The notes below the pieces were generated by a model. That model was not told where the DNA came from. It did not search any database and worked only from the letters and a program-made list of their open reading frames with translations. Shown piece after piece: positions 13,934 through 36,327 of a DNA stretch of 36,403 nucleotides. A program made the position numbers and the translations under genes. Position 1 is the first letter of the stretch. Each line of letters opens with the position of its first letter. Source of the DNA: a virus; the IMG/VR virus record IMGVR_UViG_3300017968_001557, positions 1 through 36,403 of that record; one strand, given 5' to 3'.

Positions 13934-13946
13934 AAATATACTTATG
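13931..13946. promoter_or_regulatory. Palindromic bidirectional late promoter containing both start codons
   Basis: CATAAATATACTTATG reads CATAAGTATATTTATG on the other strand. Each strand carries a late box (CATAAATA, 7/8 match to TATAAATA; CATAAGTA, 6/8) and each box ends 5 nt before a start codon. The CAT of one box is the complement of the ATG of the other gene. Neither gene has a Shine-Dalgarno site here. Confidence 0.45.
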
Positions 13947-15314: not shown

Positions 15315-15322
15315 ATATAATC

Positions 15323-15330
15323 CTTAAATA
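15323..15330 (+). promoter_or_regulatory. Late-promoter-like box for the amidinotransferase gene
   Basis: CTTAAATA (6/8 match to TATAAATA), 4 nt before the ATG at 15335; no Shine-Dalgarno site. The geometry (box, 4 nt, ATG) is the same as at 330-342. Confidence 0.35.
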
Positions 15331-15334
15331 TAGT

Positions 15335-17104: not shown

Positions 17105-17114
17105 AAAATGTTCC

Positions 17115-17122
17115 TATAAATA
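17115..17122 (+). promoter_or_regulatory. T4-type late promoter box (TATAAATA), plus strand
   Basis: Exact TATAAATA 33 nt before the TTG at 17156, with AAAGGA at 17141-17146 in the leader. A weaker minus-strand box (ATTAAATA, 17130-17137) faces the SGNH gene at 17104. Confidence 0.6.
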
Positions 17123-17155
17123 TCTAATATATTTAATGCTAAAGGATACAAAAAC

Positions 17156-20792: not shown

Positions 20793-22068
20793 AACTTCTT
20801 AACCACTCCATTTCAGGAAATGTACTCCAAAAATCTTCACCTCTGTATTGATCGAGACGATGATTGTTTTCAAAAAACTGTTTAAGTTTATCTTCGTTGA
20901 GTGTGCCTGCATTAAAAAACTGTATTACACTATCAATTTTGCCTATTACATCTTTGATTATTTCAGGTTTTGCAACTGCTCTATCTTTGATTTTATCAAA
21001 TGCCCAGGCTTTGTAATCGATATATTTTGCACGTAACTCTTGTTTGTAATGTTCGGGTATATAATCAACACGCATAAAGTCAGGCCCAGTAAGCATGTTT
21101 AATCTACAATTCTCAATATCAACAAGTCCTCTTTCAACCCAATCCATATGGAAATCGGGCCAGTTCCAAACATTATATAAACTTATGGTAGGAGTTAACT
21201 CAAAATGCACATGAGGAACTTCTTCCATCATCTGTAAACGGTTCTGTTCGATTACATTCCAATCTGTGCCGTGTCTACTGTATTCTGCTCTTGCACCATT
21301 ACAATCCAAACTTGCACTAACATGTATATCTCTAAACTGTTTCCAATACTCAAGTATACTTTTACGTTTGTACTTGAAGTTACTAAAGTTAGTTGTGTAG
21401 CGTAAAGCTACATCTGTTTTGTTAGTTTCAAGCCACTTGTCTAGTATTTTGTAATGTTCTTCGGTGATAAGTGCTTCACCTCCAGCAAAATATACTTCTT
21501 CACAGTCTGGCAAATATTTTTGCAAGTCTTCCCAGAAGTTATTTTGTTTTGCAATATTAATAATAATCTCGCCGTCGTTATTAAGAATATTTGCAACTTC
21601 ATGTTTACCATATAACTCGCCATGTTCTTTAGCATGTAAACTACTAAGTTCTGGTCCACAACTACGACATTTCATATTACATATATTGCTAAAGCGTACA
21701 TCAAGGTATACCATACGCATTTCATCAATACTACCATCATCGTTGGTTTGTCTTACAAGATCAAAATGCTTGTCTCCATACCAATGATTGTGATTTTTCC
21801 GTAATGTCCACACATATGTTCTATCTTCTAACTCATAGCAACGTCTACAACAATCTAAACGTTCTCCATTAAGCATTGCAAGACGTAGTTCTTTATACCT
21901 GTCACTATTCCAGGCTTCTTCGATACTACTTTGTTTAAGATTTGCAAATGGTTGATCACTGTCAGCAATACAACAAGGCATAACTCTTCCGTCAGGCCAG
22001 GCATGCATATGAATCCATGGCAATATACAAAATGCCTTGTTTTCTTTTAATAAATGTTCTTTATCCAT
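20785..22068 (-). CDS. Radical SAM enzyme with N-terminal SPASM/twitch-like domain, GGEA variant
   Basis: 427 aa. N-terminal Cys domain: Cys14 (FCILPWIHM), Cys32-Cys33 after PDGRVM, and Cys73/74 with Cys77 (CCRRC). rSAM motif Cys130, Cys134, Cys137 (CNMKCRSC). The SAM-binding motif is FAGGEA (about 194-199), with Ala for the usual Pro. The closest relative in the window is the next gene upstream (22061-23290), with which it shares spacing and the YxDVRFSNIC approach to the cluster. Overlap of 8 nt on both sides indicates translational coupling. Confidence 0.9.
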   Translation of the reverse strand: MDKEHLLKENKAFCILPWIHMHAWPDGRVMPCCIADSDQPFANLKQSSIEEAWNSDRYKELRLAMLNGERLDCCRRCYELEDRTYVWTLRKNHNHWYGDKHFDLVRQTNDDGSIDEMRMVYLDVRFSNICNMKCRSCGPELSSLHAKEHGELYGKHEVANILNNDGEIIINIAKQNNFWEDLQKYLPDCEEVYFAGGEALITEEHYKILDKWLETNKTDVALRYTTNFSNFKYKRKSILEYWKQFRDIHVSASLDCNGARAEYSRHGTDWNVIEQNRLQMMEEVPHVHFELTPTISLYNVWNWPDFHMDWVERGLVDIENCRLNMLTGPDFMRVDYIPEHYKQELRAKYIDYKAWAFDKIKDRAVAKPEIIKDVIGKIDSVIQFFNAGTLNEDKLKQFFENNHRLDQYRGEDFWSTFPEMEWLRSYV

Positions 22069-23290
22069 CCATCATCTCCGCAAGTTCTGGAAAGGTTTTA
22101 CAAAAATCTTCGTTGCGTATTTCGTCACGTCTTTGTATATGATGTTGAAACTGTTCTTTTTGTTCGTCCCATGTATCTTGCTCATTTGCAAAACTTACTG
22201 CATCTTTGACGTGTAAAGCAGGCCACCAGTTATCGTTTTGCATAAAGTTATATAACTTTTGATTATTGCTATTCCCGATTTCTTTAAGATTTTTTGGCAT
22301 TGCATGGGCACAAAAATAACTAGGTGTAATAGCCCTATATATACTAATACTATCTTTATGTCTAAATAAATCTTTTTCCATTAGGTATGTAAAGAAATCT
22401 GCTAGTGTTCTATAGTTAAATACGCTCAATACAGTGTTAAACTGATAATCAATAAAATCTAAGTTTCTAATACTTTTTAGATTTTCTTCAACTACTCCCC
22501 AGTCTGTTCCATGTCGCAAGTATTCAGCACGTTTACCGTAATGATCTAAACTGGCACTGATTTCAACTTTTTTAAATCGGCTCCATAAATCTAGAACATC
22601 ATATTTCTTATATTTAAAGTTACTCATGTTTGTGTTGTAACGTAATGTGATTTGTTTGTTATAACCACCTTCGATCATGGCTTCTAATATTTGATAATGT
22701 TCATCAGTGATTAAGGGTTCGCCGCCTGCAAAATATGCCATATCCATATGACAAACTTGTGACTTGATTTCTTCTAAAAGTTTTCCACTAGAATCTGCAT
22801 GATTTATAATCCTATAGTTAGGCGGAACATGATCGTGCTGTTTCATTTCTTGTGCCCACTGACTGCTAAATTCTGCTCCACATGTTCTACATTTAAAGTT
22901 ACAAATATTACTGAAACGGACATCAAAGTATCTCATTTTAAACTCAGGTACAGTTCCGTCTTCTTGTGTAGTAGGAACAACTTCGTCAAAATATTTGCTA
23001 AAGTTTTCCAAACTATAAGTTCTAAAACTAAAAGGTGAACTTTTCTCATGTTTGTAACAATATTCACAAATACTACTTTTTTCATCATTGAGCATACGCA
23101 AACGCAGTTCACGCATCAAATCATCGTTGAATATTTCAGACAAAGGTTTATTTTTTACATTATCAAACGGATCTGTATAATCACTGCTACAACAAGGATA
23201 TACATCTCCTTTTGGCGTAACATTCATATGTATCCACGGAAACATACAAAACGTTTTACTGTTCAATAACTTTTCTTTATCAAAATCCAT
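22061..23290 (-). CDS. Radical SAM enzyme with N-terminal SPASM/twitch-like domain
   Basis: 409 aa from the ATG at 23290, chosen over a start at 23320 because it leaves an 11-nt overlap with the upstream gene and begins MDFDKEKLL, like its neighbour's MDKEHLL. Cys domain: Cys15 (FCMFPWIHM), Cys33-Cys34, Cys75 and Cys78. rSAM motif Cys130, Cys134, Cys137 (CNFKCRTC); FAGGEP at about 187-192. The cluster positions are identical to those of the downstream gene, so the two are recent tandem duplicates by the standards of this region. Substrate unknown. Confidence 0.9.
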   Translation of the reverse strand: MDFDKEKLLNSKTFCMFPWIHMNVTPKGDVYPCCSSDYTDPFDNVKNKPLSEIFNDDLMRELRLRMLNDEKSSICEYCYKHEKSSPFSFRTYSLENFSKYFDEVVPTTQEDGTVPEFKMRYFDVRFSNICNFKCRTCGAEFSSQWAQEMKQHDHVPPNYRIINHADSSGKLLEEIKSQVCHMDMAYFAGGEPLITDEHYQILEAMIEGGYNKQITLRYNTNMSNFKYKKYDVLDLWSRFKKVEISASLDHYGKRAEYLRHGTDWGVVEENLKSIRNLDFIDYQFNTVLSVFNYRTLADFFTYLMEKDLFRHKDSISIYRAITPSYFCAHAMPKNLKEIGNSNNQKLYNFMQNDNWWPALHVKDAVSFANEQDTWDEQKEQFQHHIQRRDEIRNEDFCKTFPELAEMMDG

Positions 23291-24662
23291 TAGCTTCCTT
23301 ACACAACTCAAAAAAGTCATTCATTTCAGGAAAGGTAGCTTCAAAGTCAAGATTACGTCTGCGATCTTGTTCTTTAAAAAAGTTCCAAAAGTCTCTACGT
23401 CCTTCTCTAACTCTATCAGGTGTGTATTGAGTAGTTTTCATATAATCAACTACCCTGCGAAACTTTTCATACTCTAGTTCACTAAAATGATGTTTACTAC
23501 CTTCTTGCACATTATCTTTGATAAACTGTAAATGCTTTTCCATGTAAGGTAAGTATTGTTCTTTGGGCAAAATATTTATATCATATTGCAAAGGTTCTTT
23601 TAGATATGGTGTATCGAAATGTATTCTTTGCCATCTACCACTGTTAACATCGTTGTATTTACGGCGCCATTCTAACATTTTTTCAAGTAGTGTTTCAAAT
23701 GTTGTTACACTAAAAAGACTAAACGTAATCATAAATGTCACCGGTGCAGTTGTATTGCGCATAAAGTAATCTAGGTTACGTTCAAAAACTTCAATATCTA
23801 ATCCGTCACGAATATACTCTGCACGATTGCCCCAAGTATCAATACTGCTAAAAAGTTTAAATGCTTTGATTTTATTTTGGCTTAATAAACTATTAACATT
23901 ATCGGTAAACTTTTCAAGTTGTTTTTCTTTACCGCCTAAGTTACTGTTTACATTAAGTTCAAGATGCGGCTTTGGATCCTTTTCAAGTTCATCAAACAAC
24001 CTGTATGTGCTTTTTTGTATTGTAGGCTCTCCGCCAGTAACACGCAAAATGTTCAGTGTCTTGCTAACTTCGGGCCACCATTTCCACCAAGCACGTAAAT
24101 AAGGGTTGCGATCTTCTTCGTATACACGGAACCAATCAATATCATTTCTGTGATTTTTAACCATATCATACGGACCGTGCTGTCGTATTTCGTTATAATA
24201 TCTACTGCTGGCTTTCGGGTGACAATACCCACAACGGAAGTTGCATTCGTTACCAAACGAAATCTCAATGTATTCAGGATTAACATTAAAGTCCCAAGGA
24301 TTAAACTTTACTTCTTGTAATCTTTCTTCGCTGTAAATACTACCACTACGTATATGTCGATCACTAATATAATCGTCGCCCATGTTTTCAATATTCCAGC
24401 AATAGTTACAACCATTGCATTGTTTGCCTTCTAACATCTCTCTGCGTTCTTGCTTTTTTTGCTTTGTATTATGTAACGCACTAGGATTGGTTAGGAGCTC
24501 GTCAACATCAATCTGATGCGGAGCAGGGTGATAACAACTGTGTGTTTCACCTGTTTGCAAATATATTGTTGTATGGTACCATTTTGCAAAACAAAATGTA
24601 GGTGAAAAATGCCGTGTAGTAATAGCATTAATACTTTTTAACTTGTCTGTGTTTTCTGACAT
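23280..24662 (-). CDS. Radical SAM enzyme with divergent N-terminal twitch-like domain
   Basis: 460 aa. The N-terminal Cys domain is variant: Cys24 (FCFAKWYHT), only one Cys at the usual pair (Cys43 in SCYHP), then three Cys at 82, 85 and 88 (CNGCNYC). rSAM motif Cys140, Cys144, Cys147 (CNFRCGYC); VTGGEP at about 208-213. It is the most divergent of the five long enzymes and opens the third array. Its C-terminal FEATFPEM matches the FPE segment near the end of the other long enzymes. One nucleotide separates it from the glycosyltransferase gene upstream. Confidence 0.9.
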   Translation of the reverse strand: MSENTDKLKSINAITTRHFSPTFCFAKWYHTTIYLQTGETHSCYHPAPHQIDVDELLTNPSALHNTKQKKQERREMLEGKQCNGCNYCWNIENMGDDYISDRHIRSGSIYSEERLQEVKFNPWDFNVNPEYIEISFGNECNFRCGYCHPKASSRYYNEIRQHGPYDMVKNHRNDIDWFRVYEEDRNPYLRAWWKWWPEVSKTLNILRVTGGEPTIQKSTYRLFDELEKDPKPHLELNVNSNLGGKEKQLEKFTDNVNSLLSQNKIKAFKLFSSIDTWGNRAEYIRDGLDIEVFERNLDYFMRNTTAPVTFMITFSLFSVTTFETLLEKMLEWRRKYNDVNSGRWQRIHFDTPYLKEPLQYDINILPKEQYLPYMEKHLQFIKDNVQEGSKHHFSELEYEKFRRVVDYMKTTQYTPDRVREGRRDFWNFFKEQDRRRNLDFEATFPEMNDFFELCKEANGF

Positions 24663-24663: not shown

Positions 24664-25581
24664 TTATCTCTTTGCTGTTCTAGGCGGATTGGTGTATACA
24701 GTTTTAAAGAACAAACTTTGATTGCCGTTTAATGGCTCAGCAGCAATAGGCAACTCAAGTTCTTCGATCAACTTGTATCCAAGTTCTTGTGATTGTTGAT
24801 CAATATCCGAAATATCTTTATTATCCCAATATTCATTTAACCAATCAAAGTCACGCACATTTACAAAGTCCCAATCAGTACACATAGTTTTATACAAGCC
24901 TTCTCTTGCACCATAGGTTGCCCAATCACCGTTTTCAACATCTGCACCTACCATTAACCAAACATATAATCTATGCAAGTTCTTCCAATGATTCTTCTGA
25001 AACTCTTCTACTGTCGGCTTTAGTCCTCTATCAAGTGCCATCTTTACACCTTCACGAAAACCTGCTCTCCATGCTTGTTGAGGAGATCCGTTATTCATTA
25101 TTTCACTATAACAACCATTCATCTGAATGTATTCAATATCCCAACAAAAATCAACTTGTGCATGTGCATTATTAGGATCAGCATTTTCGTGAGTACGCAT
25201 GGTTAATACTTTTTGCTTAGGCCAGCATTTGATACCACCGTTGCCATACTCTAATCCGTTGATTGTGTTTTTTGCACTCCAACTGATTACACATTCATCT
25301 AAACTAACATTTTTATTCCAATGTCCATCTTCGTGATCATCTAAATTAAAACTTTTTGTTAAGAAGTCAGGATTAATAATATTATCACCGTCAACTGTAA
25401 TAAATCTATCAGATTCTGATAACTCAGCACAGGCTTTGTGTGCTGCATCGCTACCTTTAACACCATGTACTCTTTTTGCCCAAGGAATCTTTTTGCACAA
25501 GTCTGCATAGTTCTTTTCAGCATTTGGCTCATCATAGCTTAGGTAAATTATATCATAATCTAATACCCTAAATTCAGTCAT
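24664..25581 (-). CDS. GT-A type glycosyltransferase-like protein
   Basis: 305 aa. The N-terminal 70 residues read IIYLSYDEPN, KRVHGVKGSDAAHKAC, FITVDGDNIINPDF: the strand-helix pattern of a family-2-like nucleotide-sugar binding domain, with Asp64-Gly-Asp66 as the metal-binding DxD. The rest (NGGIKCWPK, CWDIEY, TYGAREGLYKTM) is as expected for acceptor side but not assigned further. Related proteins are common in marine T4-like phages. It lies just upstream of the third rSAM array and overlaps the unknown gene at 25578 by 4 nt. Confidence 0.7.
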   Translation of the reverse strand: MTEFRVLDYDIIYLSYDEPNAEKNYADLCKKIPWAKRVHGVKGSDAAHKACAELSESDRFITVDGDNIINPDFLTKSFNLDDHEDGHWNKNVSLDECVISWSAKNTINGLEYGNGGIKCWPKQKVLTMRTHENADPNNAHAQVDFCWDIEYIQMNGCYSEIMNNGSPQQAWRAGFREGVKMALDRGLKPTVEEFQKNHWKNLHRLYVWLMVGADVENGDWATYGAREGLYKTMCTDWDFVNVRDFDWLNEYWDNKDISDIDQQSQELGYKLIEELELPIAAEPLNGNQSLFFKTVYTNPPRTAKR

Positions 25582-26150
25582 AGTAATACCTCGTGATAAT
25601 AACTTTCTAGTCTCTTAGAAGTATACACGCTAAACCCGTCAGGGTCAAGTTCTAAATCGCTGTCAAAGTCAATAGAATAATCACCTGTAATCACACTAGA
25701 AATGTCAATAGTAAAAAAACGATGTAAATGATTTGGATTATTTTTACGTGTAATACTAAAACCCATTACTTGGTTAAAGTTTAAGTTATTTTTTCTAAAG
25801 TTTTCGCATATTTCTTCTGCAACTGTAAATGTCCATTTTTTATTTTTTATGTCTTGTGTTACAGTTAAGTCTGGATTGTTTTTTGTTCTAGGAAGTTTAA
25901 ATATTTGATCATTGATATTTGGCATGTAGTTATCTTCATTATAGATATGTTTTAGAACATGCTTTTTTTGATCACTATCAAATATAACTAGATAATGTCT
26001 AAACTGCTCTTTACCTGTGATTAATGTTTCCACATCACTAGGCTCTACTTTGATGTAGTTTGCATCAGTAGGTTCTCTGTTGTAAATACCTAAGAGTGTG
26101 CCATTTTCATCAAATGACACATATTTGTCAACATTTACAAATACGCTCAT
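25578..26150 (-). CDS. Protein of unknown function
   Basis: 190 aa, not recognised. No Cys motif, signal peptide or membrane segment. It begins VNVDKYVSFDENGTLLGIYN and is rich in Asp, Asn and beta-type residues, with an ITRKNNPNHLHRFFTID stretch in the second half; this could be a small beta-sandwich or a structural/assembly protein. ATGA overlaps on both sides place it firmly in the operon between two glycosyltransferases. Confidence 0.75.
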   Translation of the reverse strand: MSVFVNVDKYVSFDENGTLLGIYNREPTDANYIKVEPSDVETLITGKEQFRHYLVIFDSDQKKHVLKHIYNEDNYMPNINDQIFKLPRTKNNPDLTVTQDIKNKKWTFTVAEEICENFRKNNLNFNQVMGFSITRKNNPNHLHRFFTIDISSVITGDYSIDFDSDLELDPDGFSVYTSKRLESYYHEVLL

Positions 26151-26977
26151 GCTATTCCTTTTTCAAATATCTCAACTATTTCGTCAGTAAGGAAGTCTTT
26201 TTCAGTATAATGAAAAACACCAGATTGTTTGTAGTTACCAATAAACAAGTCGCAATCGTTATCTAAATACACGCCAACTTTATCTTGCCATGTCTCGGTC
26301 TTAATATCCCACCAATCTTGTCCGTGCAACTTCATGTGTGTAATATTAGGAAAACTTGTATTACTAGTTACTTGTTTATCAATGTTAAGCAACTTTACAG
26401 CAATAGCACAACTTACATCCATACTTGGAAACTTCTGAAAGTATTTACCTCCTGCAAACTGTCCATAAAACATCTCCCAGTTATTCATTATCATTTCTAG
26501 TAGTTTAAAAAACTTATGCGAAAAGTCACACTTTTTAAAATAATATAATGCACAATAAATATCAGGAAGTTGATGTGTTCTAAATGATTGCCTGTAGTAG
26601 TTAGTTGTGTATTTTGTTCCTCTGTAAGTTTTTACATTTGATGTAAAATACAAATCTTTCTTTTCTAAAAAGTTCCACCAGTGTTCAATATTTTCTAAAA
26701 CTAATACATCTGTGTCTAATACAAATGTTTTATCAAACGGTGTAGCATGATACACTTTCCATCTGTGTTCAGCACTAAATCTAGATTCAGTTTCGCTATA
26801 CCACGGAATATCTACAATCTCATCAAATACTGCTTTTTGTTTTGCACTTACTTCATCATTTGTAATCAAACAGATATTTGCATTTTTATTATATCGTTTA
26901 ATACTACATGCAGCAAGATAGGCTTGCTTTATATAATCACTGTTTTTATTTTCTGCTAACATAGTAAAGTTAGGCAT
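26147..26977 (-). CDS. GT8-like glycosyltransferase
   Basis: 276 aa from the ATG at 26977; a TTG two codons upstream is less likely. The N-terminus FTMLAENKNSDYIKQAYLAACSI, then NICLITND, and FVLDTDVLVLENIEHWW with Asp88-Thr-Asp90 give the GT-A fold with a DxD motif as in family 8 retaining enzymes. A late HMKLHGQDWW could be the second metal-binding His site. The next gene upstream is a paralogue with the same layout. It presumably adds a hexose from UDP-sugar to an unknown acceptor. Overlaps neighbours by 4 and 8 nt. Confidence 0.75.
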   Translation of the reverse strand: MPNFTMLAENKNSDYIKQAYLAACSIKRYNKNANICLITNDEVSAKQKAVFDEIVDIPWYSETESRFSAEHRWKVYHATPFDKTFVLDTDVLVLENIEHWWNFLEKKDLYFTSNVKTYRGTKYTTNYYRQSFRTHQLPDIYCALYYFKKCDFSHKFFKLLEMIMNNWEMFYGQFAGGKYFQKFPSMDVSCAIAVKLLNIDKQVTSNTSFPNITHMKLHGQDWWDIKTETWQDKVGVYLDNDCDLFIGNYKQSGVFHYTEKDFLTDEIVEIFEKGIA

Positions 26978-27815
26978 TATCAATAATCCTATTCAAACTG
27001 TACTTGTTTATAACATGCACATTACTACCTTTTATTCTTAAAGGAGTATATTCGTTACTTTCATTTCTTTTTTGAACTAAAAACAAAAAGTTGTCTTCTC
27101 GTAAATCTAAAAGTACGTCTTTGTCAGTGCAATAATACATTGTTCCTGGCATTTTACCTGCAAAGTTATTATCTGTAAATCCATTCATAATATGTATTGC
27201 AATACTAAATGCATGATCATTTCTAAATACATTTGTATTTAATTTGTATAGATTTCTGTAATGTGCATAATGATCTTGTATGTGCGATACTAAATCAAAA
27301 AATATTTTATTTTGCTCAGTCTTTCTAAAAAATACACAAGTTGCCCAATAAAACTTTGGTCCTATTTCGCTTATATATGTAAACTCGTTAGGATCTCTCC
27401 ACCCTGCAAAATCATAAGCAGAATCATATATCAAAAAATCTTTAGATTGGTTAAAACAATTTTTAAAAATATTATTAGATACTACAAAATCAGTGTCTAG
27501 TAATAATGTTTCTTCATATGGTGTTAAATCATATACACTACTACGATTTCCATTTTTAAACTCTAGTTGTTTTTTTGAAAAAATACCATCAAAATATTTT
27601 TTGTAACTATACTTTTTATCATTGTCAATCTCAATAACTTTATCAAATACATCTATATCTTTTGGATAAGTTTTGTGTAGATATTCAATGTTATCAGTGA
27701 TCAATGTTGTGGGCAAGTTTAAATACTTGCTTATACGTTTTGCAAGAAAAACTGCTTGTTTAATATAGTCGATTTCGGTATTATTTCTAGCTATAAGTAC
27801 AACACCTTGACTCAT
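26970..27815 (-). CDS. GT8-like glycosyltransferase, paralogue of its downstream neighbour
   Basis: 281 aa. It starts VVLIARNNTEIDYIKQAVFLAKRI and has TTLITDN, then TLLLDTDFVVSNN with Asp107-Thr-Asp109, aligned by eye to the gene at 26147-26977. The segments FYWATCVFFRKTE and NDHAFSIAIHIMNG match the CALYYFKK and DVSCAIAVKLLN segments of the paralogue. It is probably a product of tandem duplication. An ATGA overlap joins it to the small gene upstream. Confidence 0.72.
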   Translation of the reverse strand: MSQGVVLIARNNTEIDYIKQAVFLAKRISKYLNLPTTLITDNIEYLHKTYPKDIDVFDKVIEIDNDKKYSYKKYFDGIFSKKQLEFKNGNRSSVYDLTPYEETLLLDTDFVVSNNIFKNCFNQSKDFLIYDSAYDFAGWRDPNEFTYISEIGPKFYWATCVFFRKTEQNKIFFDLVSHIQDHYAHYRNLYKLNTNVFRNDHAFSIAIHIMNGFTDNNFAGKMPGTMYYCTDKDVLLDLREDNFLFLVQKRNESNEYTPLRIKGSNVHVINKYSLNRIIDNA

Positions 27816-28159
27816 ACTTCAATAATACCTTCAACTGTTCTGTTTACTTTTAACTTGTTATATTCTGTAATATACTTGTTTGCAGCTTTTGTGTAAACAT
27901 TAACCATTTCATTAGCAAACTTTTTTAAATCTTCAATATGAATAGGAATATCATTATCATCAATAATCACAGTTTCTTCTTGCCCTAGTGCTAATAAACT
28001 TTGACAAAAACTTACAAGTCCAGGAGTTACTGTAAACTGCCCACCATTACAAAAATGTAATAGATCATCTTGATATTGTTCTTTTAAAACTCTTTTTGTA
28101 TTGTCTAAAGTAATCATATAGTTACTGAAGTCAAGAGCTTTTTCTAGTCTTTCATCCAT
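27812..28159 (-). CDS. Small conserved-looking protein of unknown function, first gene of operon
   Basis: 115 aa, not recognised with certainty. MDERLEKALDFSNYMITLDNTK, then a mostly helical remainder with one VIIDDNDIPIHIEDLKKF beta-turn, no Cys motif. The overall look is that of a small cytoplasmic phage protein known from marine T4-like genomes near the tail genes, but the function is open. It has AAGGAG 7 nt before the ATG and a sigma70-like promoter, so it is the first gene of the minus transcript that continues into the glycosyltransferases and rSAM array. Confidence 0.75.
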   Translation of the reverse strand: MDERLEKALDFSNYMITLDNTKRVLKEQYQDDLLHFCNGGQFTVTPGLVSFCQSLLALGQEETVIIDDNDIPIHIEDLKKFANEMVNVYTKAANKYITEYNKLKVNRTVEGIIEV

Positions 28160-28211: not shown

Positions 28212-29231
28212 TTATGTAGGAGGAGTACTTAAATCTTGAGAAATGTTTGTGCTTGTAGACATTGTGGGTGCTGTAAGACTACAAGCTGTATAGTTTACTG
28301 CATTAACTGTAAAACTACTATTTGGTGTACTAGTACGAACATTGCTTGTTAGTGTTCCTGTTACAGTTTCGTCAATAGGATCATTAACTCCGCCGATCCC
28401 TTGACCACCTTCACCAACATCGCCGTCATTAAACTCGATTCTAAATCTTACAGCAGTGGTACCATCTAAACGTGCAGATATTGTATAATCGTTATCTGCG
28501 TATACGCCACTACCTGTTTTTGTAAAAATAATCTGATAGTTCGAAGTTAGATCATCAAAACCGCTGTTTAATGCTGGTGTACCACTTGATGCAGTTGTTG
28601 CATATTTGTCAAAATCAATAGTTGCCATTGCAGACAGCATACTTGCCCAATCTGTGCCTTTTGCACCACTTGAACCTGTTAGACTTGCATCAAACTTGAT
28701 AGATCCACCTGCATTGAAGAAAAATGCTCTTTGTGATGCATTAGTCCATGTTACAGTCATTACATGATAAACACTTTGTACTTCGCTTGCTCCGCCCCAT
28801 TGAGTAGTTCTTTGGCTAGTTTCTGGAGAACTAATATCAAAGTTAGGAGGGGGATAACCTGTTACTTCATCATCAAAGTTTTGTATTGTTGTCACAGCAT
28901 TAATATAGTCATTAAATCCCATTAACGTACCATCTGTGATAGCTGTTTTAGTACCAGTAGATGTATTAAAGTTGAAACTAGTATCTGCGCCGATAGTGTT
29001 TCCTGCACTAACAGCAGCTATAGTAGCATCTAAAGCACCAGTTTGATGTACTGAAACTTTTTGTATATCAATATATAAATCAAATAGTTGGTCCTCGGTA
29101 ACGCTGTCAACTGTAGCAGATACGTTGCTACTAGTTGCACTCTGGCCCCACAAAGCAACCAAAATACCAGTTACATTAGTACGCATACTATTGTAATCAG
29201 TTGCTAAGATTTTTCCGCCAGTTGCTACCAA
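28212..29231 (-). CDS. Virion structural protein, paralogue of its upstream neighbour; TTG start
   Basis: 339 aa. The start is TTG at 29231 with AAGGAG (29239-29244) 7 nt upstream, so the non-ATG start is well supported. No Cys-based enzyme motif; the protein is rich in Ser, Thr, Gly and Asn. Blocks shared with the gene at 29276-30163 are TTQWGGASEVQSV, FFNAGGSIKF, ASLTG, TKTGSGVYADNDYT, EFNDGD and PIDETVTGTLTS. This is typical of decorated or appended tail/capsid proteins of marine T4-like phages. The Gly-rich GDVGEGGQGIGG loop lies before the last domain. Exact position in the virion unknown. Confidence 0.7.
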   Translation of the reverse strand: MVATGGKILATDYNSMRTNVTGILVALWGQSATSSNVSATVDSVTEDQLFDLYIDIQKVSVHQTGALDATIAAVSAGNTIGADTSFNFNTSTGTKTAITDGTLMGFNDYINAVTTIQNFDDEVTGYPPPNFDISSPETSQRTTQWGGASEVQSVYHVMTVTWTNASQRAFFFNAGGSIKFDASLTGSSGAKGTDWASMLSAMATIDFDKYATTASSGTPALNSGFDDLTSNYQIIFTKTGSGVYADNDYTISARLDGTTAVRFRIEFNDGDVGEGGQGIGGVNDPIDETVTGTLTSNVRTSTPNSSFTVNAVNYTACSLTAPTMSTSTNISQDLSTPPT

Positions 29232-29238
29232 AACTATT

Positions 29239-29279
29239 CTCCTTTGTACATTTATTACATATTAAAACAGTTTTGTCAA
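29239..29279 (-). promoter_or_regulatory. Leader of the TTG-start structural gene: weak promoter and strong ribosome site
   Basis: TTGACA (29274-29279) overlaps the stop of the preceding gene and is followed by AT-rich DNA with AATAAATG, a 6/8 match to the late box. No good -10 hexamer lies at 17 bp, so the promoter is weak or late-type. AAGGAG at 29239-29244 precedes the TTG at 29231. Confidence 0.35.
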
Positions 29280-30163
29280 GCTAAAGATGTTGTTGTATTA
29301 TATATTGGAGTGGCTACCTCAACATACGAACCTGTTGCTCTAAGTTGACTTACAGAACTTGTAAGTGTGCCAGTTACTGATTCGTCTATAGGACCATGGC
29401 CGCCAGCACCGCTGCCTGCTGCATCATCATTAAATTCTGCAACAAATGTAATCACTGCTCCATTTGCTTTTGCTTTAAGTGTATAGTCATTATCGACATA
29501 TACACCACTACCTGTTTTTATAAGTAAAGTTTGATACGATGTTGTTAAATCAAAGTTTCCTAATCCAGAACTAGTGCCGCTATCAGCAGTAGTATTTTGC
29601 GATGTAACTTTTATTGTACCTAGAGCAGACAGCATACCGTTCCATTCTGTGTATTTAGAACCTGTGCCACCAGTTAAACTAGCAGTCAAACGTATTTCTC
29701 CGCCACTATTAAAAAAATGTCTTCTATGATCTTCTGAATTAAATGTAACTGTAAAATGATGCTCTACACTTTGCACTTCAGAAGTGCCGCCCCAGTTTGT
29801 TGTTCTTTGAGTAGTAAGTTTATCTTCTGCACTTGCTTGTGTTGTTGCAAATATAAGAGCAGCGTCATTTAAAATGTTTGTCGATTGAGTTTCATACTGT
29901 GCATACACTGCATCAGTGATATCTTCTTGGGCTACTACATTAGACAAAGTAGGTGCAGCACCTGTTTGGTGCACTCTAGCATTAGTCATATCTGATTTTA
30001 AGTTTGTCATATGAAAAGCATTCACAGTATCTGAGGTTGATACTGCTGAACTATTCAGTGTTTGTCCATATCCATATGTACCTGAACCATTTCCGTAAAC
30101 TAGAGCAACCTTTGCTTGCATTTGGTTGTACCTAGTTACTGTGATTATTTCTCCTACTGCCAT
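29276..30163 (-). CDS. Virion structural protein, tandem paralogue
   Basis: 295 aa. It carries the same blocks as the next gene: TTNWGGTSEVQSV, FFNSGGEIRL, ASLTGG, IKTGSGVYVDNDYT, EFNDDA, PIDESVTGTLTS. Both begin with a short Gly/Ile/Thr-containing segment (GEIITVTRYNQMQ here, GKILATDYNSMR there). No enzymatic motif. It has its own TATAAATA late promoter, and AAGGAA lies before the ATG. Late expression fits a virion role. A tandem duplication is inferred from the alignment by eye. Confidence 0.75.
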   Translation of the reverse strand: MAVGEIITVTRYNQMQAKVALVYGNGSGTYGYGQTLNSSAVSTSDTVNAFHMTNLKSDMTNARVHQTGAAPTLSNVVAQEDITDAVYAQYETQSTNILNDAALIFATTQASAEDKLTTQRTTNWGGTSEVQSVEHHFTVTFNSEDHRRHFFNSGGEIRLTASLTGGTGSKYTEWNGMLSALGTIKVTSQNTTADSGTSSGLGNFDLTTSYQTLLIKTGSGVYVDNDYTLKAKANGAVITFVAEFNDDAAGSGAGGHGPIDESVTGTLTSSVSQLRATGSYVEVATPIYNTTTSLA

Positions 30164-30181
30164 ATCATTCCTTTACTAGGG

Positions 30182-30189
30182 TATTTATA
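30182..30189 (-). promoter_or_regulatory. T4-type late promoter box (TATAAATA)
   Basis: Exact TATAAATA, 18 nt before the ATG at 30163, with AAGGAA in the leader; it overlaps the stop codon of the preceding tail gene. Spacing is that of a normal T4 late promoter with a short leader. Confidence 0.75.
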
Positions 30190-31753
30190 CCTGTAGTAAT
30201 ACCTCAACTAATTTCTCTTCTTGAGCTGTATTTGATTCTAAAGCTACACCTACAACTGTGTCAGTAGGAATAGTAGATGCAGTGCCATCTGACCAACCGT
30301 AAAGTTTTTGTCCTTTTCCTACCGGAAATACAACTTTAACAGGAACACGACCTTTTAATGCAATAGGCTGTCCATCACAATCTTCATTCATAAGGTAAGC
30401 AGGTTTTTCACTTATAACACCAACTGCTACACCCCCAAGTTGATATGGCTCAATCTCAAACTTGTTGTTTTTGCCAACCATCATAACTGTTCCTACCGGG
30501 TGCTCTACACCTTCTTCTACTGTGTACTTTTCTGCAAGGTCAGCATATCGAGCTTTTGTTGCAGTACCAGTGAAAACATTTGCTGTAATGTTTCCGCTGC
30601 CATCACGTGCAGCAATAGTATTTGGTGTTGCAGCAGTTGCAGCACTTCTGTTTGTACCACCTACTGATAATGTATCAGCAGCAGTCGCTTGACCAGTAAA
30701 TGTTGTTGCGTGTACATTTAAAAACTTGTTTGTGCTTTTACCTAATGTATAAGTTGAGTTTCCAAATGGATAAAAATGAGTATTTGTAAGTGTAGCAATA
30801 GTTGTGCTTGCACCACTTGATAAAAACTCAAGCATATTATGATCTAACTCTAGCACAGGAGTGTCTCCTGTTACGCCGTCACCGCTTGGATCTCCTGCCT
30901 GTCTAATACGCATTGTAATATCTGCATTATCAGTACCTACTGTAAATCCTTGATCTGGAAACTGTGCAGCAGTTGCACCTGATCTAAAATCTAAAGACGC
31001 TGTTTTAACATATTCATTTTCTGCGTGATATACACCAGAACCGTCAACTAGACCATTAGCTGCGGCTGCTGTTCCCCAAAAATAATGATCCGATGTATAT
31101 GTGTTACCGTCAGATGCTGCACCAAATAATGTGATACCTTTTTTGATTGTAGGAAATACACCAGCAGTTTTTAGTTCACCTGTGGCAGTTTTTATTTCTG
31201 CAGGTATTTCTGTTTGTAATGTATTAACAGCAGGAACAAAATCATTGTTAGGACTAATAATAGATACGATTTTATTGTTTGTTACGGCTGCAATCACTGA
31301 TTTAGCTACACCTGTACTGTCTTCAAAGATTGTAAAACTTTGCATAGAAGTTGTACCTGTGCCTGCTTTTTGCGGTCCAATCAATACCCAAGTGTTAGAT
31401 TCATTTAAACCATAAAGCTGATCAGTTGTTGTATTCCACCATAAATCACCTTCTGCTCTACTAGTTGGAGTAGCAGCGGCTACCTCGGCACCACCTGTAC
31501 CTTTCCATTGTGTACCATCATAAACTTTCAGTCTATTACCACTGTTGTCAAACCATAGTTGACCAGTAATAGGTTTTGTTGGTGCAGCAGTTCCTGAAAA
31601 GTTTTCCAATAAAAACAAAAAGTTTTCGTTTTGTGCTTCACCATATCCTGAATAGTTTTTACCTATCAGTTTTAAATCTGTTGTTTGATCAACTGTTCCG
31701 TCTTCAACACTTGTAAGAACAGTTCCATTGAATCTATTAATTGTATATGCCAT
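30185..31753 (-). CDS. Tail fibre-like protein with C-terminal G2-peptidase-like domain
   Basis: 522 aa. The N-terminal 150 residues (TVDQTTDLKLIGKNYSGYG, ENFLFLLENF, GQLWFDNSGNRLKVYDGTQW, GDLWWNTTTDQLYG, WVLIGP) repeat the module of the two upstream genes; it probably attaches or trimerises the fibre. The middle is beta-rich (LGKSTNKFLNVHATTFTG). The C-terminus ARYADLAEKYTVEEG, HPVGTVMMVG, VGVISEKPAYLMN is like the intramolecular peptidase/chaperone domain at the ends of tail fibres; no catalytic Ser could be picked by eye. A weak late box (GGTAAATA, 31780-31787) precedes it. Likely role: tail fibre or adhesin. Confidence 0.8.
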   Translation of the reverse strand: MAYTINRFNGTVLTSVEDGTVDQTTDLKLIGKNYSGYGEAQNENFLFLLENFSGTAAPTKPITGQLWFDNSGNRLKVYDGTQWKGTGGAEVAAATPTSRAEGDLWWNTTTDQLYGLNESNTWVLIGPQKAGTGTTSMQSFTIFEDSTGVAKSVIAAVTNNKIVSIISPNNDFVPAVNTLQTEIPAEIKTATGELKTAGVFPTIKKGITLFGAASDGNTYTSDHYFWGTAAAANGLVDGSGVYHAENEYVKTASLDFRSGATAAQFPDQGFTVGTDNADITMRIRQAGDPSGDGVTGDTPVLELDHNMLEFLSSGASTTIATLTNTHFYPFGNSTYTLGKSTNKFLNVHATTFTGQATAADTLSVGGTNRSAATAATPNTIAARDGSGNITANVFTGTATKARYADLAEKYTVEEGVEHPVGTVMMVGKNNKFEIEPYQLGGVAVGVISEKPAYLMNEDCDGQPIALKGRVPVKVVFPVGKGQKLYGWSDGTASTIPTDTVVGVALESNTAQEEKLVEVLLQV

Positions 31754-31803
31754 AGTTACCTAACCTTGTTATGTTTATGTATTTACCAGTTATACGCTGG
31801 AAA

Positions 31804-33633
31804 CTATAAATCCGTATCAAACTCCCATTGCTGAGCACCGTTTACTACAAATCTTTTTAATGTTCGTGTTACTGTGAGTGTAACAGTTTGGTTTGTTTGT
31901 TCAGCAAATGCAACGTCTTGTAAAACACTTTGGTTTTCAACGCCGTTTTTGTCAACTGTAACAAAACTTTTTGTAAGTCCATCGCCTGCGTCATAAGCGT
32001 ATGTACCACTATAACTAGTACAATGCACTTTACAATATACTCCAGGGTTTTTTGTTATAGCTGGAAATAAATCTTCAATAACATCAGCTATTTGTACGTC
32101 TGTTAATCCTGTTGTATCTAAAGAAAATGCTTCGTCACGTTCTAATGATGCATTATCAACATATTCTTTTGTTGCAGCAGTGTTTGGATCATCGCTAACA
32201 TCTGGTGTTCCTACATTAAGTAACTTGTTTTCATTTGTAAATGTAATATCGCCGCCGATTGTAAGAGTTAAAGGAGTAGCCATTGTCAATGTACTACTGT
32301 TAAAAGTAAAGTTATCAACTGTAAGTTCTGTTAATGTACCAATCTGTGTTATGCCTAATGCACTAGTAACACTTGTTGCAAGTGCAGTTGATGATAGCAC
32401 TTCAGATCCGCCTATTTTATAATGATATCCAGAAGGTAAATCTATGTAGGCATGTGGAGTCCAAGCGTCAGTTGCATTTTTCCAAGTCCAAGACTTTGTA
32501 TTAGATTCGTAACCTTCAGGACCGCCGCGAATAACAATACCTGCGTCATCAATAGCAGCACTATCAGGATATGTACTACTATCATCTGCAACTGCCAACT
32601 CAATCTGATGATCTTCAAGTTGTAGTGTTTGTGTAGAAATATATGTAGTGTCACCTTGAACTGTTAGGTCGCCTGTAACTCTCATATCTCCAGCAAAATC
32701 AAAATCATATTCTGGAGTTGAAGTTTTAAATCCTAATCTAAACACATCATTGTCTATAAAAATAGCATCTGTTGGTACATTAGATCTTGTAACTTGTAAC
32801 GCTAAATCATCTGTATTAGAAGTAGATCGTAATACAACCTTATTGGTTTCAGCTTTTAGTAATATTTCTAGATTTGGTCCAACTTTTAAACCTTCAATGT
32901 TGGTAACTTGCAATCTTGCTGAAACTTCTTGAGTACTAGTTGATGCTTTTATTAAAAAATCATTAGGGACAAAAGTAGTAGTACCGTCGCTCAACTTTGT
33001 TGTGCTATCTGCGTTTCCATAAAAAGAAAAATCACTAAGTGCAGTTGCAATCGTGATACCCGATTTAATAGCCGTTGTAAATCCTGTGAGTTTTGTAAGA
33101 TTGTCAGTTGTTGAAGCAGCAGTAAATGCTTCTCTACTGATCAACATTGCAGGTTGGTTTCCAATCTTGTAAATCGTTACAGTTTTTCTTTGTCCAAATC
33201 TGTCAACTAATGTTACTGGTTCAACTCCTGTGTAGCCCTGTGTGCTTGTATACGTAGGTCCTGCAAGTATTACATCTACACCATCACTAAAATACATTTG
33301 TTGATTTGCACTATCAATCCAAATATCGCCTGCAAGCATTGTAGGTTGACTTGCTCCAAGAACTGTAGTGTCTGTATTTCTAAATCTTGTGCCGTCAAAT
33401 ACTTTTAAACGTCCATCGCTTGTATCGTACCATATTTGTCCACGTAGTGGATTATCAGGTTCGGCTGCATTGGCAAAGTTCTCCAATATCTTGACAAAGT
33501 TTTCATTCATAACTTCGCCATAACTTGTGGTATTTCTACCTATAAGTGTTACATCTATGGAATCTGAATCTATTTTACCATCTACAAGATCTACAAGTAA
33601 TGTACCGTCTGTTTTGTTTATTTTATAACTCAT
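31804..33633 (-). CDS. Tail fibre-like protein, paralogue
   Basis: 609 aa. It opens with the shared N-terminal module: DVTLIGRNTTSYGEVMNENF, ILENFANAAEPDNPLRGQIWY, GRLKVFDGTRF, GDIWIDSANQQMYF, VILAGP. The middle has regular beta-type repeats with SGYHYKIGGSEVLS and NLTVQG/DLTVQGDTT-like segments seen in phage fibres, and the last 100 residues are unlike those of its paralogues. A GCAGGAG site lies 6 nt before the ATG at 33633. 12 nt separate it from the upstream gene. Fibre role inferred from the module and position. Confidence 0.8.
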   Translation of the reverse strand: MSYKINKTDGTLLVDLVDGKIDSDSIDVTLIGRNTTSYGEVMNENFVKILENFANAAEPDNPLRGQIWYDTSDGRLKVFDGTRFRNTDTTVLGASQPTMLAGDIWIDSANQQMYFSDGVDVILAGPTYTSTQGYTGVEPVTLVDRFGQRKTVTIYKIGNQPAMLISREAFTAASTTDNLTKLTGFTTAIKSGITIATALSDFSFYGNADSTTKLSDGTTTFVPNDFLIKASTSTQEVSARLQVTNIEGLKVGPNLEILLKAETNKVVLRSTSNTDDLALQVTRSNVPTDAIFIDNDVFRLGFKTSTPEYDFDFAGDMRVTGDLTVQGDTTYISTQTLQLEDHQIELAVADDSSTYPDSAAIDDAGIVIRGGPEGYESNTKSWTWKNATDAWTPHAYIDLPSGYHYKIGGSEVLSSTALATSVTSALGITQIGTLTELTVDNFTFNSSTLTMATPLTLTIGGDITFTNENKLLNVGTPDVSDDPNTAATKEYVDNASLERDEAFSLDTTGLTDVQIADVIEDLFPAITKNPGVYCKVHCTSYSGTYAYDAGDGLTKSFVTVDKNGVENQSVLQDVAFAEQTNQTVTLTVTRTLKRFVVNGAQQWEFDTDL

Positions 33634-33645
33634 ATTTACTCCTGC

Positions 33646-35712
33646 TTATGTAGATGGTCCAATGTACATGATATAGTTCATTACAACACTAGGACTAGTA
33701 ACCTTAAACTTGGTACCAACCTCTTGATTGACATTGTCAATATTTTCTGTTGTGAATGTTACATCTTCAACACCGCCTGTCCTGTCTATTCCGTACCCTG
33801 CTGTATTTCCTAACAAGTTGTTAGCTGCGGCACCAGTGTCTGATCCATCGCCTGCATTTGTCATTGCTAGGTATTGATTTGCTGCATCACCTTCTAAACT
33901 GTGTTCGTGATTTGGAAGCTGATCCTTTGTAATCCAATCACTTTCTTGACCTGCTGTTGTGCCCATCACACTTGAAGCACCAAACGAATCACTTTCGCTT
34001 GCTTTATCATATACACGGTTTGTATCGATATAAGATACATCGTCAGGAACATGACCTAAAACATATCTACCTCTTAAATCTGGAACTTTAAAATAGAGTG
34101 CACTCGAGGGTGCTCCATATGTATCTCCAATCAAATCATAAAGTGATTGATAGTTTGCTTTTACAAGTTCCTGTCCGTGACATAACACCCAAAGAACTTC
34201 TGATGCTGGAAGTTCCTCTGCTGCATATGGCATAATCATGCCTAGTGTAAAAGTTGGAACTGTGCTTACTAAAGTTGATTGCTTGACTCTTTTAATGTCT
34301 GTGCCTCTGGCAATCAATATATCGTCTGTGCCTTCGATAGTAGTTGATAACGATTGTCCAGTGATAAATGCCTCACTAACAGTTGTTACAAACTCTTTTG
34401 TGCTAGTTCCGCTGCCGTCAAATGTAAACTCTGGTGCAGTAACATGACCCGACATTCTAAATGTAGTAGGACTAGCTAGTTTTCCTGCAGAGGCACTTGT
34501 ACCACTTATGTTACCGTTAACTGTACCAGTAAGATTACCAACAAAGTTATTTGCATACACATTATTATATTTTAAAGTAGTTGTACCTAAGTTATAAGAA
34601 AGATTATCTTTTGGGGTAATGTTTTTTGCTACAAGACTTTCTGCAACATCTAAACTTCCGCCTAGATACATGTTTTGACTTACTCCAAGTCCTCCTGACA
34701 CAACTAGTGCACCAGTGCTAAAACTTGTGCTACCGTTACCACTATTAACTTTCAAAGTACCACTTACTTGAGCATTGCCTGTAACATCTAATGCCTCTTG
34801 AGGTGCTTCGTTTGCAATACCTACTTTTCTGTCTGGTGTGATACGTATTGCAGTGCGCACAGTTCCTGAATCATTAGTTTTAAAATCTAATGCACCATCC
34901 GTTGCTGTATGTCTAATTTGTGCTGTGCTACCTGTGATACTTAATCTTAGTAGACCATTTTCTCCAATAGACAAACCAGTATTATCAATTATGTTTTGTG
35001 ATTTTGTAAAGTTATTTGTAATGTCTTTTCTTGCAAAAGTAGCTGCTGAAATATTGCTATTTGAAATAACTAGATTTTCTGCTGCTGTTGCAACACCATA
35101 AAGTTTTGCATCGTTTGCAAGATTTATACCTTTTTTAAGAACATTTGAAACAGGAAATCCTGTTTCGGCCTTTTTTAAACTAAACTCAGTTTGTGCAGTG
35201 ATTGCAACTGGAACATTGTTTACTCTGTCAATAACTACATTTTCAGTAATATTTGTAGAGTTTATAACTTCTTCAAACCTTGCACCAGTACTAGCACCTT
35301 CGCTATAGTCTGGACCAACTAAAATATAACCACTGCCTGTATAAACATAAACTTGACTATTTGCAGTATCAACCCAAATATCTCCAATAGTGCTAGAACT
35401 TGCTTCTGGTTCACTAGTTGCTTTTTTGATGCCTCCGGCACTTACCCACACTGCACCATCATATACTTTTAGTTGATCAACACCTGTTGTATTATCATAC
35501 CATAGTTGCCCTTCAACAGGATTGCTAGGGCTTGATGCGTTAGCAAAGTTCTCTAGCATTTGAAGAAGATTTGTATTTAACAGTTCGCCAAAGTCGCTAA
35601 AGTTTCTACCTATTAATGTAATAGATGTTTCATCACTGTTTGTGGAGTTGTCATCGACAGTTATTGCTCCTTTGTTGGTGAAATCTGTAAATCTTACTTC
35701 ATAGCCTGCCAT
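33646..35712 (-). CDS. Tail fibre protein with phage tail collar domain
   Basis: 688 aa. N-terminal module as in the other two (SITLIGRNFSDFGELLNTN, LENFANASSPSNPVEGQLWY, DQLKVYDGAVW, GDIWVDTANSQVYVY). The collar domain lies at about 490-560: GMIMPYAAEELP, WVLCHGQELVKANYQSLYDLIG, FKVPDLRGRYVLG, typical of the short-tail-fibre/gp12-like collar. LPNHEHSLEGD downstream gives an HxH that may bind metal in the trimeric tip, as in T4 receptor-binding fibres. It is the most likely receptor-binding fibre of the window. GAGGGG lies in front of the ATG. Confidence 0.88.
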   Translation of the reverse strand: MAGYEVRFTDFTNKGAITVDDNSTNSDETSITLIGRNFSDFGELLNTNLLQMLENFANASSPSNPVEGQLWYDNTTGVDQLKVYDGAVWVSAGGIKKATSEPEASSSTIGDIWVDTANSQVYVYTGSGYILVGPDYSEGASTGARFEEVINSTNITENVVIDRVNNVPVAITAQTEFSLKKAETGFPVSNVLKKGINLANDAKLYGVATAAENLVISNSNISAATFARKDITNNFTKSQNIIDNTGLSIGENGLLRLSITGSTAQIRHTATDGALDFKTNDSGTVRTAIRITPDRKVGIANEAPQEALDVTGNAQVSGTLKVNSGNGSTSFSTGALVVSGGLGVSQNMYLGGSLDVAESLVAKNITPKDNLSYNLGTTTLKYNNVYANNFVGNLTGTVNGNISGTSASAGKLASPTTFRMSGHVTAPEFTFDGSGTSTKEFVTTVSEAFITGQSLSTTIEGTDDILIARGTDIKRVKQSTLVSTVPTFTLGMIMPYAAEELPASEVLWVLCHGQELVKANYQSLYDLIGDTYGAPSSALYFKVPDLRGRYVLGHVPDDVSYIDTNRVYDKASESDSFGASSVMGTTAGQESDWITKDQLPNHEHSLEGDAANQYLAMTNAGDGSDTGAAANNLLGNTAGYGIDRTGGVEDVTFTTENIDNVNQEVGTKFKVTSPSVVMNYIMYIGPST

Positions 35713-35715
35713 TTT

Positions 35716-36327
35716 TTACCCCTCGTTAAATCCACTCAAACTTTGTACACGCACAGTATAATCGATTTGTATCAGTCTGTTTAAACTTTTTTGTACTGGG
35801 TGGAAGATGACATGAGTAATCAATCTGCCTGTGCCACTAGAGCTATAACTTTTTAATCCTAACTCGTCAAACACATATATACCATCTTGATTTGCTGATG
35901 TATCAAATGCGTCCTGACCTTCTGGCTCACCATAATCTAAAAGACATGTGACTAAAATATCAGTATAGTTGGTTCCGCTAACATGTCTTATTTCGGTTTT
36001 GTTTCTAGTTGGATCAACATTGTTTACACTTCTATCATCAACAACTTTGTCAAATGTTTGATTATATAAAGTTGCATTTGTTCCGGTGCTATTAGGAGTT
36101 AGATATGTAATAATACCTGTTGGATCAACACTAGTACCGCCATTGCCAAAACTCATACTATTGATAAAGCCTTGTCCTTGATTGGCTAGACTTTCTGCTA
36201 AGGCTATACTCATGTTTTCGTAGTGAATAGCATTTCTTTTATTCACATATACATCGCCCGATTCTGGATCATGTATTTTTATGTGTCCTTCAACATGTAT
36301 GCCGTTAATATCTTTTAAATCATTCAT
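35716..36327 (-). CDS. Virion structural protein (tail/baseplate-associated)
   Basis: 203 aa. INGIHVEGHIKIHDPESGDVYVN near the start and GLKSYSSSGTGRLITHVIF near the end are beta-rich; SFGNGGTSVDPTGIITYLTP looks like a conserved turn region. No enzyme motif. The family is familiar from marine T4-like phages, just before the fibre genes; a baseplate or fibre-attachment role is inferred from position. The ATG at 36327 is preferred although the frame stays open to the right edge, because no ATG, GTG or TTG lies upstream and a late promoter box with a 19-nt leader ends in front of it. 3 nt separate it from the collar gene. Confidence 0.72.
   Translation of the reverse strand: MNDLKDINGIHVEGHIKIHDPESGDVYVNKRNAIHYENMSIALAESLANQGQGFINSMSFGNGGTSVDPTGIITYLTPNSTGTNATLYNQTFDKVVDDRSVNNVDPTRNKTEIRHVSGTNYTDILVTCLLDYGEPEGQDAFDTSANQDGIYVFDELGLKSYSSSGTGRLITHVIFHPVQKSLNRLIQIDYTVRVQSLSGFNEG

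Follow-up and report, generated by a model that had tools for sequence, protein, structure and literature searches.

Three tail-fibre genes, S-family genes and candidate modification enzymes in a kept order on a 36.4 kb virus fragment

Host-recognition clusters of pelagimyophages and cyanomyophages, which are T4-like, place tail fibres beside glycosyltransferases, with GT8 the most represented, and some of them carry radical S-adenosylmethionine (SAM) cassettes, as part of one account describes (PMC7029224). A T4-like marine genome, TARA_ERS488813_N000010, holds 12 radical SAM genes in one phage genome, and the portion of that report which treats it mentions no link to tail fibres (PMC5332604). 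Both kinds of arrangement are already in print. The virus fragment analyzed here (36.4 kb; 36,403 nucleotides (nt); IMG/VR record IMGVR_UViG_3300017968_001557), called the window in what follows, likewise has many radical SAM genes, which stand behind three tail-fibre genes, two S-family genes and glycosyltransferase-like genes. The pelagimyophage cluster is, in the part of its description drawn on here, a large, nonsyntenic, variable island, whereas the window has a core of about ten genes in kept order that is headed, unlike that cluster, by g203, whose family occurs in phages of the PA5oct, Atu_ph07 and 121Q kinds. The best explanation we can offer is that the window is the distal end of the baseplate/tail-fibre operon of a large T4-like phage, running unbroken into an enzyme island, and that its late enzymes would modify virion adhesion proteins; taken as a whole, this leading but unproven reading is held tentatively, its likelihood a little short of even.

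Among described phages, Pseudomonas phage PA5oct (NC_071039) is alike in its wedge genes, a giant virion gene, a g203 homologue, two tandem fibres with the N-terminal module (N-module) that the window's three fibres share, and an S homologue, all marked in its GenBank record as found by electrospray ionization tandem mass spectrometry (ESI-MS/MS), a mark that we read as detection in virions. It differs in having two fibres and one S gene, and in having no GT8-like, u305GT or PF04055 match on its record. The N-module also occurs in Phosso, Atu_ph07 and 121Q, and the module fibres next behind the g203 homologue belong to the family of PA5oct gp358/359, 121Q gp577 and the Atu_ph07 and Phosso fibres. 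Sinorhizobium phage Phosso and Agrobacterium phage Atu_ph07 have a g203 homologue and a single module fibre shortly followed by radical SAM genes, one of which in each phage matches a window gene at only about 25% identity, but they differ in having that one fibre, no GT8-like or u305GT match on their records, and no S gene that could be found. A tblastn search of cultured phages for h115, rSAM11 or u305GT gave none at 1e-5. The middle part of the fibres matches Bdellovibrio bd2133 (8ond; E 4.5e-9), a likeness limited to about 95 profile positions. Among the papers listed in literature searches, which covered mostly open-access work, we found no description of the core of three fibres, S, h115, two glycosyltransferases, u190 and a further glycosyltransferase, of its late-promoter motif or of its single exchangeable end, and a search that reached few subscription papers found none linking radical SAM enzymes to fibre modification.

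Gene order and late-promoter motif behind the fibres

All six genes between 28212 and 36327 lie on the minus strand, with coordinates checked, and they open a co-oriented run from 36327 to 18464 in which gaps range from -41 to +52 nt, the latter being the largest gap in the whole window. The run reads g203, F688, F609, F522, S295, S339, h115, GT281, GT278, u190, u305GT, rSAM11, rSAM10, rSAM9, rSAM8, kin216 and DUF6071 (Table 1), so that glycosyltransferase-like and radical SAM genes stand directly behind h115, and the original prediction was right to put the fibre genes next to modification enzymes. Gene names are working labels of this analysis, kin216 and the glycosyltransferase reading of u443, u364 and u375 being labels with no Pfam match behind them, and open reading frames (ORFs) were called mechanically, so their start codons may be off. 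No gap holds a separate precursor-peptide gene, and because there is no room for one, a protein substrate of the enzymes would probably be found among the few virion genes of the same operon, or outside the window. On a relative's contig the upstream side holds wedge genes of a T4-like baseplate, a gene for a hub protein and a late sigma factor matching phrog_12791 (3.5e-79), and a gene of about 4,590 residues stands between wedge and g203 on a relative's contig.

Scans anchored on h115 and on g203 each covered the best 80 of at least 600 matched stretches, all near relatives with g203 identity of at least 75%, and used hidden Markov models built from this uncultured phage group. For h115, 79 of the 80 loci were examined (L006 left out), and five loci of the first scan were added; the scans share some contigs, and a set of 85 rows is non-redundant at 95% identity in F3. 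Relatives of h115 are encoded by at least 512 of the 600 matched viral-contig stretches listed, and the order S, h115, two glycogenin-like genes, u190, GT-A-fold gene and, usually, twitch radical SAM gene is near-fixed. The g203 anchor does not presuppose the enzymes; behind it, S follows in 58 of the 59 loci long enough, and a GT8-like gene lies within 10 kb in 48 of 55. The seven misses comprise four loci with the pair further along the contig (L153, L172, L190, L182), one whose contig ends inside the first gene of the pair (L154), one whose contig ends before it (L151) and one with none on 19.7 kb (L206). In the scan of close relatives rSAM11 lies behind this operon in 34 of 34 loci and nowhere else. 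Anchoring on rSAM11 gave u305GT in all 34, preceded by u190 or the contig start, S in 30 and a fibre gene in 28, the four loci without S beginning inside the operon. The u190 profile missed some u190 genes, and L108 and L110 have an extra ORF between S and h115.

Bacterial genomes yielded six u305GT loci. Four of them (L207, L208, L209, L211) hold the same phage operon in metagenome bins assigned to Neomarinimicrobiota and Rickettsiales, one contig being 335 kb long, and are probably misbinned phage, or else a clue to the host; L210 is a cassette of u305GT, MT201 and radical SAM with no fibres in its 12 kb, and L212 is a distant partial match. A further cassette, in which MT201 and radical SAM genes follow a u305GT paralogue, recurs downstream or without fibres in view in L094, L209, L210 and others.

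In 39 of 84 loci the motif TATAAATA, which we take to be the T4 late-promoter core, is found no more than 60 nt ahead of the first S gene; control windows taken further upstream have it in 0 of 84. F3 is preceded by it in 9 of 84 loci, h115 in 2 of 75 and unlabelled plus-strand ORFs in 2 of 43, and it was found before none of the tested g203, F1, F2, second S, glycosyltransferase, u190, u305GT and radical SAM genes. On longer contigs it precedes the S295 orthologue in G003, G004, G005 and G010, and it lies 25-33 nt before u443GT in these four and in the window, where it is 33 nt away (17115-17122, plus strand). A further copy in the window (15340-15347, minus strand) is 25 nt before SGNH270, as it is in G003, G004 and G005, and in G010 it lies a little inside SGNH270, whose start was called mechanically. 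Judged by the placing of this motif, the unit from S to rSAM11 is probably transcribed late with the virion genes, at least in the motif-bearing loci.

The S proteins and the predicted enzymes

S295 and S339 share 40% identity across 302 residues (E 7e-50), in keeping with the earlier remark that the two structural genes starting at 28212 and 29276 are alike over most of their length. S is 30% identical over 265 residues to PA5oct gp360, which carries the ESI-MS/MS mark, and by analogy the S proteins of this group are probably located in the virion. The family has one to three genes per locus, with two in 62 and one in 12 of the 74 h115-anchored loci in which at least one module fibre is visible. 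Foldseek gave no PDB match to the S fold under 1e-3, the sequence profile gave none in PDB, and the best VIA Z of 7.0 may mean only a common arrangement; the S model matches three uncharacterised phage proteins in BFVD. Distance correlations hinted that S tracks the enzymes more than the fibres, an idea that was rejected: in approximately unbiased (AU) tests the fibre tree fits S better, and both trees are rejected.

A joint GT281/GT278 profile matches glycogenin with E 3.8e-5 over positions 3-113 of 275, and both proteins have a DxD motif in the form LDTD, with no Pfam glycosyltransferase match to either; by sequence they belong to the GT8/glycogenin type, glycosyl transfer being their predicted activity. 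The modelled structure of u305GT is of GT-A fold. Its best Foldseek matches are the peptide S-glycosyltransferases SunS/ThuS (6.2e-5), and in VIA 50 rows score Z 8.0-9.6, with SunS/ThuS not at the top and level with many GT-A enzymes. The u190 profile gave a single chance-level match against PDB (E 0.25). Eleven radical SAM genes lie between 937 and 24662 in this one 36 kb fragment, and CxxxCxxC is kept in all eleven. PF04055 is above its cut-off in six, below it in four and absent from rSAM9, and NF033640 (NCBIfam), scanned in six of the eleven, is above cut-off in five, including rSAM9 and rSAM11, which marks them as twitch-type; the identity of rSAM4, rSAM5 and rSAM8 rests on the motif and on sub-threshold matches. 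Relatives have more: a fragment of 77 kb carries 25 PF04055 matches and another of 64 kb carries 21, and 16 contigs longer than 100 kb have 3-21 apiece. rSAM11, Amidino, Epim, rSAM1 and rSAM7 have orthologues in G005 and G010 at 78-88% identity, compared with 44-51% for the fibres, and the divergence of u375GT, u364GT, u362, rSAM6 and SGNH262 equals or exceeds that of the fibres.

The fibre triplet and the exchanged end of F3

BLASTP E values between the three fibres are 8e-32 (F688/F609), 1.8e-28 (F688/F522) and 1.6e-29 (F609/F522), and the strong similarity stops near residues 126-135 and is weak behind, which bears out the shared N-terminal module, of about 130 residues, that had been noticed at the outset together with the differing parts behind it. 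The Collar domain (PF07484) of F688 scores 52.1 bits, above the gathering score of 24, and no Collar match was found in F609 or F522. In a tree of 56 N-modules, where the 121Q row is a long branch, F1, F2 and F3 each form one clade of 17 rows, with support of 90/99, 98/94 and 100/99, respectively. Exactly three module fibres are present in 44 of 44 h115-anchored loci bounded by g203, and 68 of the 80 g203-anchored loci have three in a row, four of these with a fourth further on; a further 11 show two, one or no fibre, the contig ending, and F1 is apparently split in L144. With queries from the window only, the C-terminal class agrees with the slot in 45/45 F1, 39/45 F2 (the other six having no match) and 45/45 F3 proteins, so that all 129 classable fibres, of 135, match their slot class and no swapping of ends between paralogues was found. 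Since the N-modules form clades by slot and the C-terminal class follows the slot, these sequences indicate that the triplet is an inherited set and no recent tandem array, its duplications being older than the phage group. The duplication that the original prediction proposed is therefore real as paralogy, but ancient.

AU tests against a fibre tree do not reject F1 (p 0.06), F2 (0.11), the first 380 residues of F3 (0.24) or g203 (0.07), of which only g203 is an independent test, the tree having been built from F1, F2 and F3. The last ~140 residues of F3 reject both this tree (p 9e-6) and the enzyme tree (4e-5). Across the 85 non-redundant loci, F3 blocks from about residue 327 correlate with the rest at rho 0.14-0.24, compared with 0.44-0.70 for earlier F3 blocks, and F2 has a single weak block (rho 0.24-0.25 at residue 407); these correlations are descriptive, pairwise distances not being independent. 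Among 3569 F3 pairs, 12 are at least 85% identical at the C-terminus but at most 50% in the middle, such as L114/L012 (26% middle, 90% C-terminus), and 7 are of the reverse kind, with a middle of at least 70% and a C-terminus of at most 65%, such as L183/L199 (83% and 54%). The alignment for breakpoints that had been suggested places the switch in the example pairs between residues 391 and 421, adjoining RYADLAEKY at 402. By these comparisons the last ~120-140 residues of F3 are exchanged between phages, with the junction near RYADLAEKY, and the predicted swapping of receptor-binding ends thus holds between phages, mainly at F3, and was not found between paralogues among the loci sampled. A stable three-fibre array that changes mainly the end of F3 marks the site of fibre evolution in these large phages.

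The fourth fibre, present in 4 of the 80 g203-anchored loci (L153, L154, L172, L190), is of F3 type with a new end. Three of these fibres were examined; their N-modules lie nearest to F3, and their essentially unrelated ends match one another and, in one case, a 21-residue stretch of an F2. Three small genes lie between this extra fibre and F3 at L153:15907-17342, and also in L154, L172 and L190, one of them with a weak 2OG-Fe(II) oxygenase match. At L206:10467-12074, on the reverse strand after the triplet, there is a fibre-like gene with an Mtd N-terminal domain where the S and glycosyltransferase unit is absent from the contig.

Candidate substrates and the gene map

In the modification reading, the shared N-module would attach every fibre to a baseplate site of one kind, and the differing ends would bind different surface targets. 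The transferases and radical SAM enzymes, made late alongside the S proteins, would modify virion adhesion proteins before assembly, the S proteins first and the fibres second, so that the adhesins would carry chemistry invisible in their sequence. We favour modification of the virion because of the near-fixed order, the late-promoter motif, the lack of any gap for a precursor gene and the presence of different radical SAM genes at the same position in Phosso and Atu_ph07. As candidate substrates the S proteins are at least as good as the fibres. If the enzymes act on either, adhesin presentation would change without a change of sequence, and sequence-based host-range prediction would miss it. 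A wider form of the proposal, in which a late production line of glycosyltransferases and up to about 25 radical SAM enzymes, co-transcribed with the adhesin genes, modifies S and fibre proteins as a post-translational diversification of adhesins through chemistry over sequence, is possible but doubtful.

The original prediction had taken richness in Ser, Thr and Asn as the sign of a substrate, and this mark was rejected. The Ser/Thr/Asn content in the window is 0.25-0.28 in the fibres and 0.32-0.33 in the S proteins, and the group-mean Ser+Thr content is 0.195 for F1, 0.202 for F2, 0.179 for F3 and 0.220 for S, the window's own S proteins being richer (0.251 and 0.263). The PA5oct homologues, which lack these enzymes, match the group averages (fibres 0.194 and 0.238; S 0.222). 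Module fibres have 0.169 in 121Q, 0.142 in Phosso and 0.147 in Atu_ph07. The positional link between fibres and enzymes is stronger than the original prediction could tell.

Several observations weigh against the modification of virion adhesins. The PA5oct values just given are one, and the low Ser+Thr content of the Phosso and Atu_ph07 fibres (0.14-0.15) despite their radical SAM neighbours is another. The module fibres of PA5oct and 121Q, and S in PA5oct, occur without a GT8-like or u305GT profile match, so fibres and S need no such enzymes, and L206 has a fibre triplet with no S, h115 or glycosyltransferase on its contig. The exact motif TATAAATA is missing before S in 45 of 84 loci and before the S295 orthologue in G006 and G009, and in the whole window it occurs at chance frequency (5 found, 5.27 expected), its conserved feature being position, not frequency. 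AU tests also reject the fibre tree for the glycosyltransferase (2.6e-7) and radical SAM (2e-66) genes, leaving fibre-enzyme co-evolution unsupported, and reject the enzyme tree for the same genes (7e-12 and 1.8e-5), which thus have no common tree.

A serious rival is that the enzymes remodel the host surface polysaccharide, for example to exclude competing phages, with the fibres as mere neighbours in a host-recognition cluster. Part of PMC7029224 argues this case for the glycosyltransferases of such clusters and ties GT8 mainly to lipopolysaccharide synthesis. The sugar-pathway genes of the window, an epimerase (PF01370, 5.8e-39) and a partial DegT match, would suit it as well. Superinfection exclusion is, however, usually early, whereas in 39 of 84 loci the unit and its virion genes are headed by a late-promoter motif; eleven radical SAM genes are hard to fit with a simple glycan, and remodelling of the host does not require a near-fixed order with S and h115. 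Host-surface modification is on balance rather unlikely, though it stays a strong competitor. Less likely again, and improbable in our view, is that the end of the fibre operon is a tolerated insertion site for late cargo whose enzymes serve the synthesis of an unrelated small molecule or the modification of nucleic acid. The genes behind rSAM11 do vary between relatives, the fibre and enzyme trees differ, and small-molecule chemistry is suggested by a QueC-like gene (E 2.4e-4; 21.1 bits, cut-off 22) and by a gene matching phrog_25854, which we take to be amidinotransferase-like; yet almost every sampled locus of sufficient length keeps h115, the two GT8-like genes, u190 and u305GT behind S, which mere cargo would not be expected to do.

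That the fibres form a young array still being reshuffled, as first supposed, is very unlikely. The exchanged C-terminus of F3 and the fourth fibre with its new end speak for some movement, but the three old clades and the end class by slot led us to reject recent duplication or shuffling between paralogues among the sampled loci, and g203, F1, F2 and the rest of F3 are compatible with one tree. Exchange between paralogues is, on these sequences, largely refuted among the loci sampled.

Table 1. Features of the window, with coordinates, strand and supporting evidence
Feature	Coordinates	Strand	Evidence
g203, conserved, probably virion protein, heads fibre block	35716..36327	-	phrog_11259 7.8e-69; PA5oct homologue marked ESI-MS/MS
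F688 (slot F1), fibre with N-module and C-terminal Collar domain	33646..35712	-	PF07484 6.3e-14, aa 491-550
N-module of F688, about aa 1-135	35308..35712	-	pairwise comparison, N-module tree
Collar domain of F688	34063..34242	-	PF07484
F609 (slot F2), fibre with N-module	31804..33633	-	
N-module of F609, about aa 1-128	33250..33633	-	
F522 (slot F3), fibre with N-module and exchangeable C-terminal domain	30185..31753	-	
N-module of F522, about aa 1-128	31370..31753	-	
Exchanged C-terminal domain of F522, about aa 395-522, RYADLAEKY at aa 402	30185..30571	-	AU test, decoupled distances, motif position
TATAAATA late-promoter motif, 18 nt before S295, overlaps F522 end	30182..30189	-	
S295, S-family, probably virion protein	29276..30163	-	S339 paralogue; PA5oct homologue marked ESI-MS/MS; model pLDDT 92
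S339, second S-family protein	28212..29231	-	
h115, small conserved protein	27812..28159	-	relatives on at least 512 matched viral-contig stretches
GT281, glycogenin-like (GT8-type) glycosyltransferase, LDTD at aa 106	26970..27815	-	
GT278, glycogenin-like (GT8-type) glycosyltransferase, LDTD at aa 89	26147..26983	-	
u190, fast-evolving protein	25578..26150	-	27-76% identity to five orthologues
u305GT, GT-A-fold, glycosyltransferase-like, VDGDN at aa 63	24664..25581	-	
rSAM11, twitch radical SAM, first of enzyme island	23280..24662	-	NF033640 307.5 bits, cut-off 170
rSAM10, rSAM9, rSAM8, radical SAM genes, co-oriented run	19830..23320	-	
kin216 (no Pfam match) and DUF6071 protein, end of run from g203	18464..19833	-	
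Rest of enzyme island: 7 more radical SAM genes, QueC-like, Asp/Asn-hydroxylase-like, epimerase, partial DegT-like and uncharacterised genes	189..18487		

Within the rest of the island, the DegT-like match at 13944-14543 covers part of a 360-position profile, and the gene, of 199 aa, is a fragment or a divergent protein. The gene matching phrog_25854 lies at 15335-16342, and an Asp/Asn beta-hydroxylase-like gene (PF05118, 4.1e-9) lies at 4155-4850.

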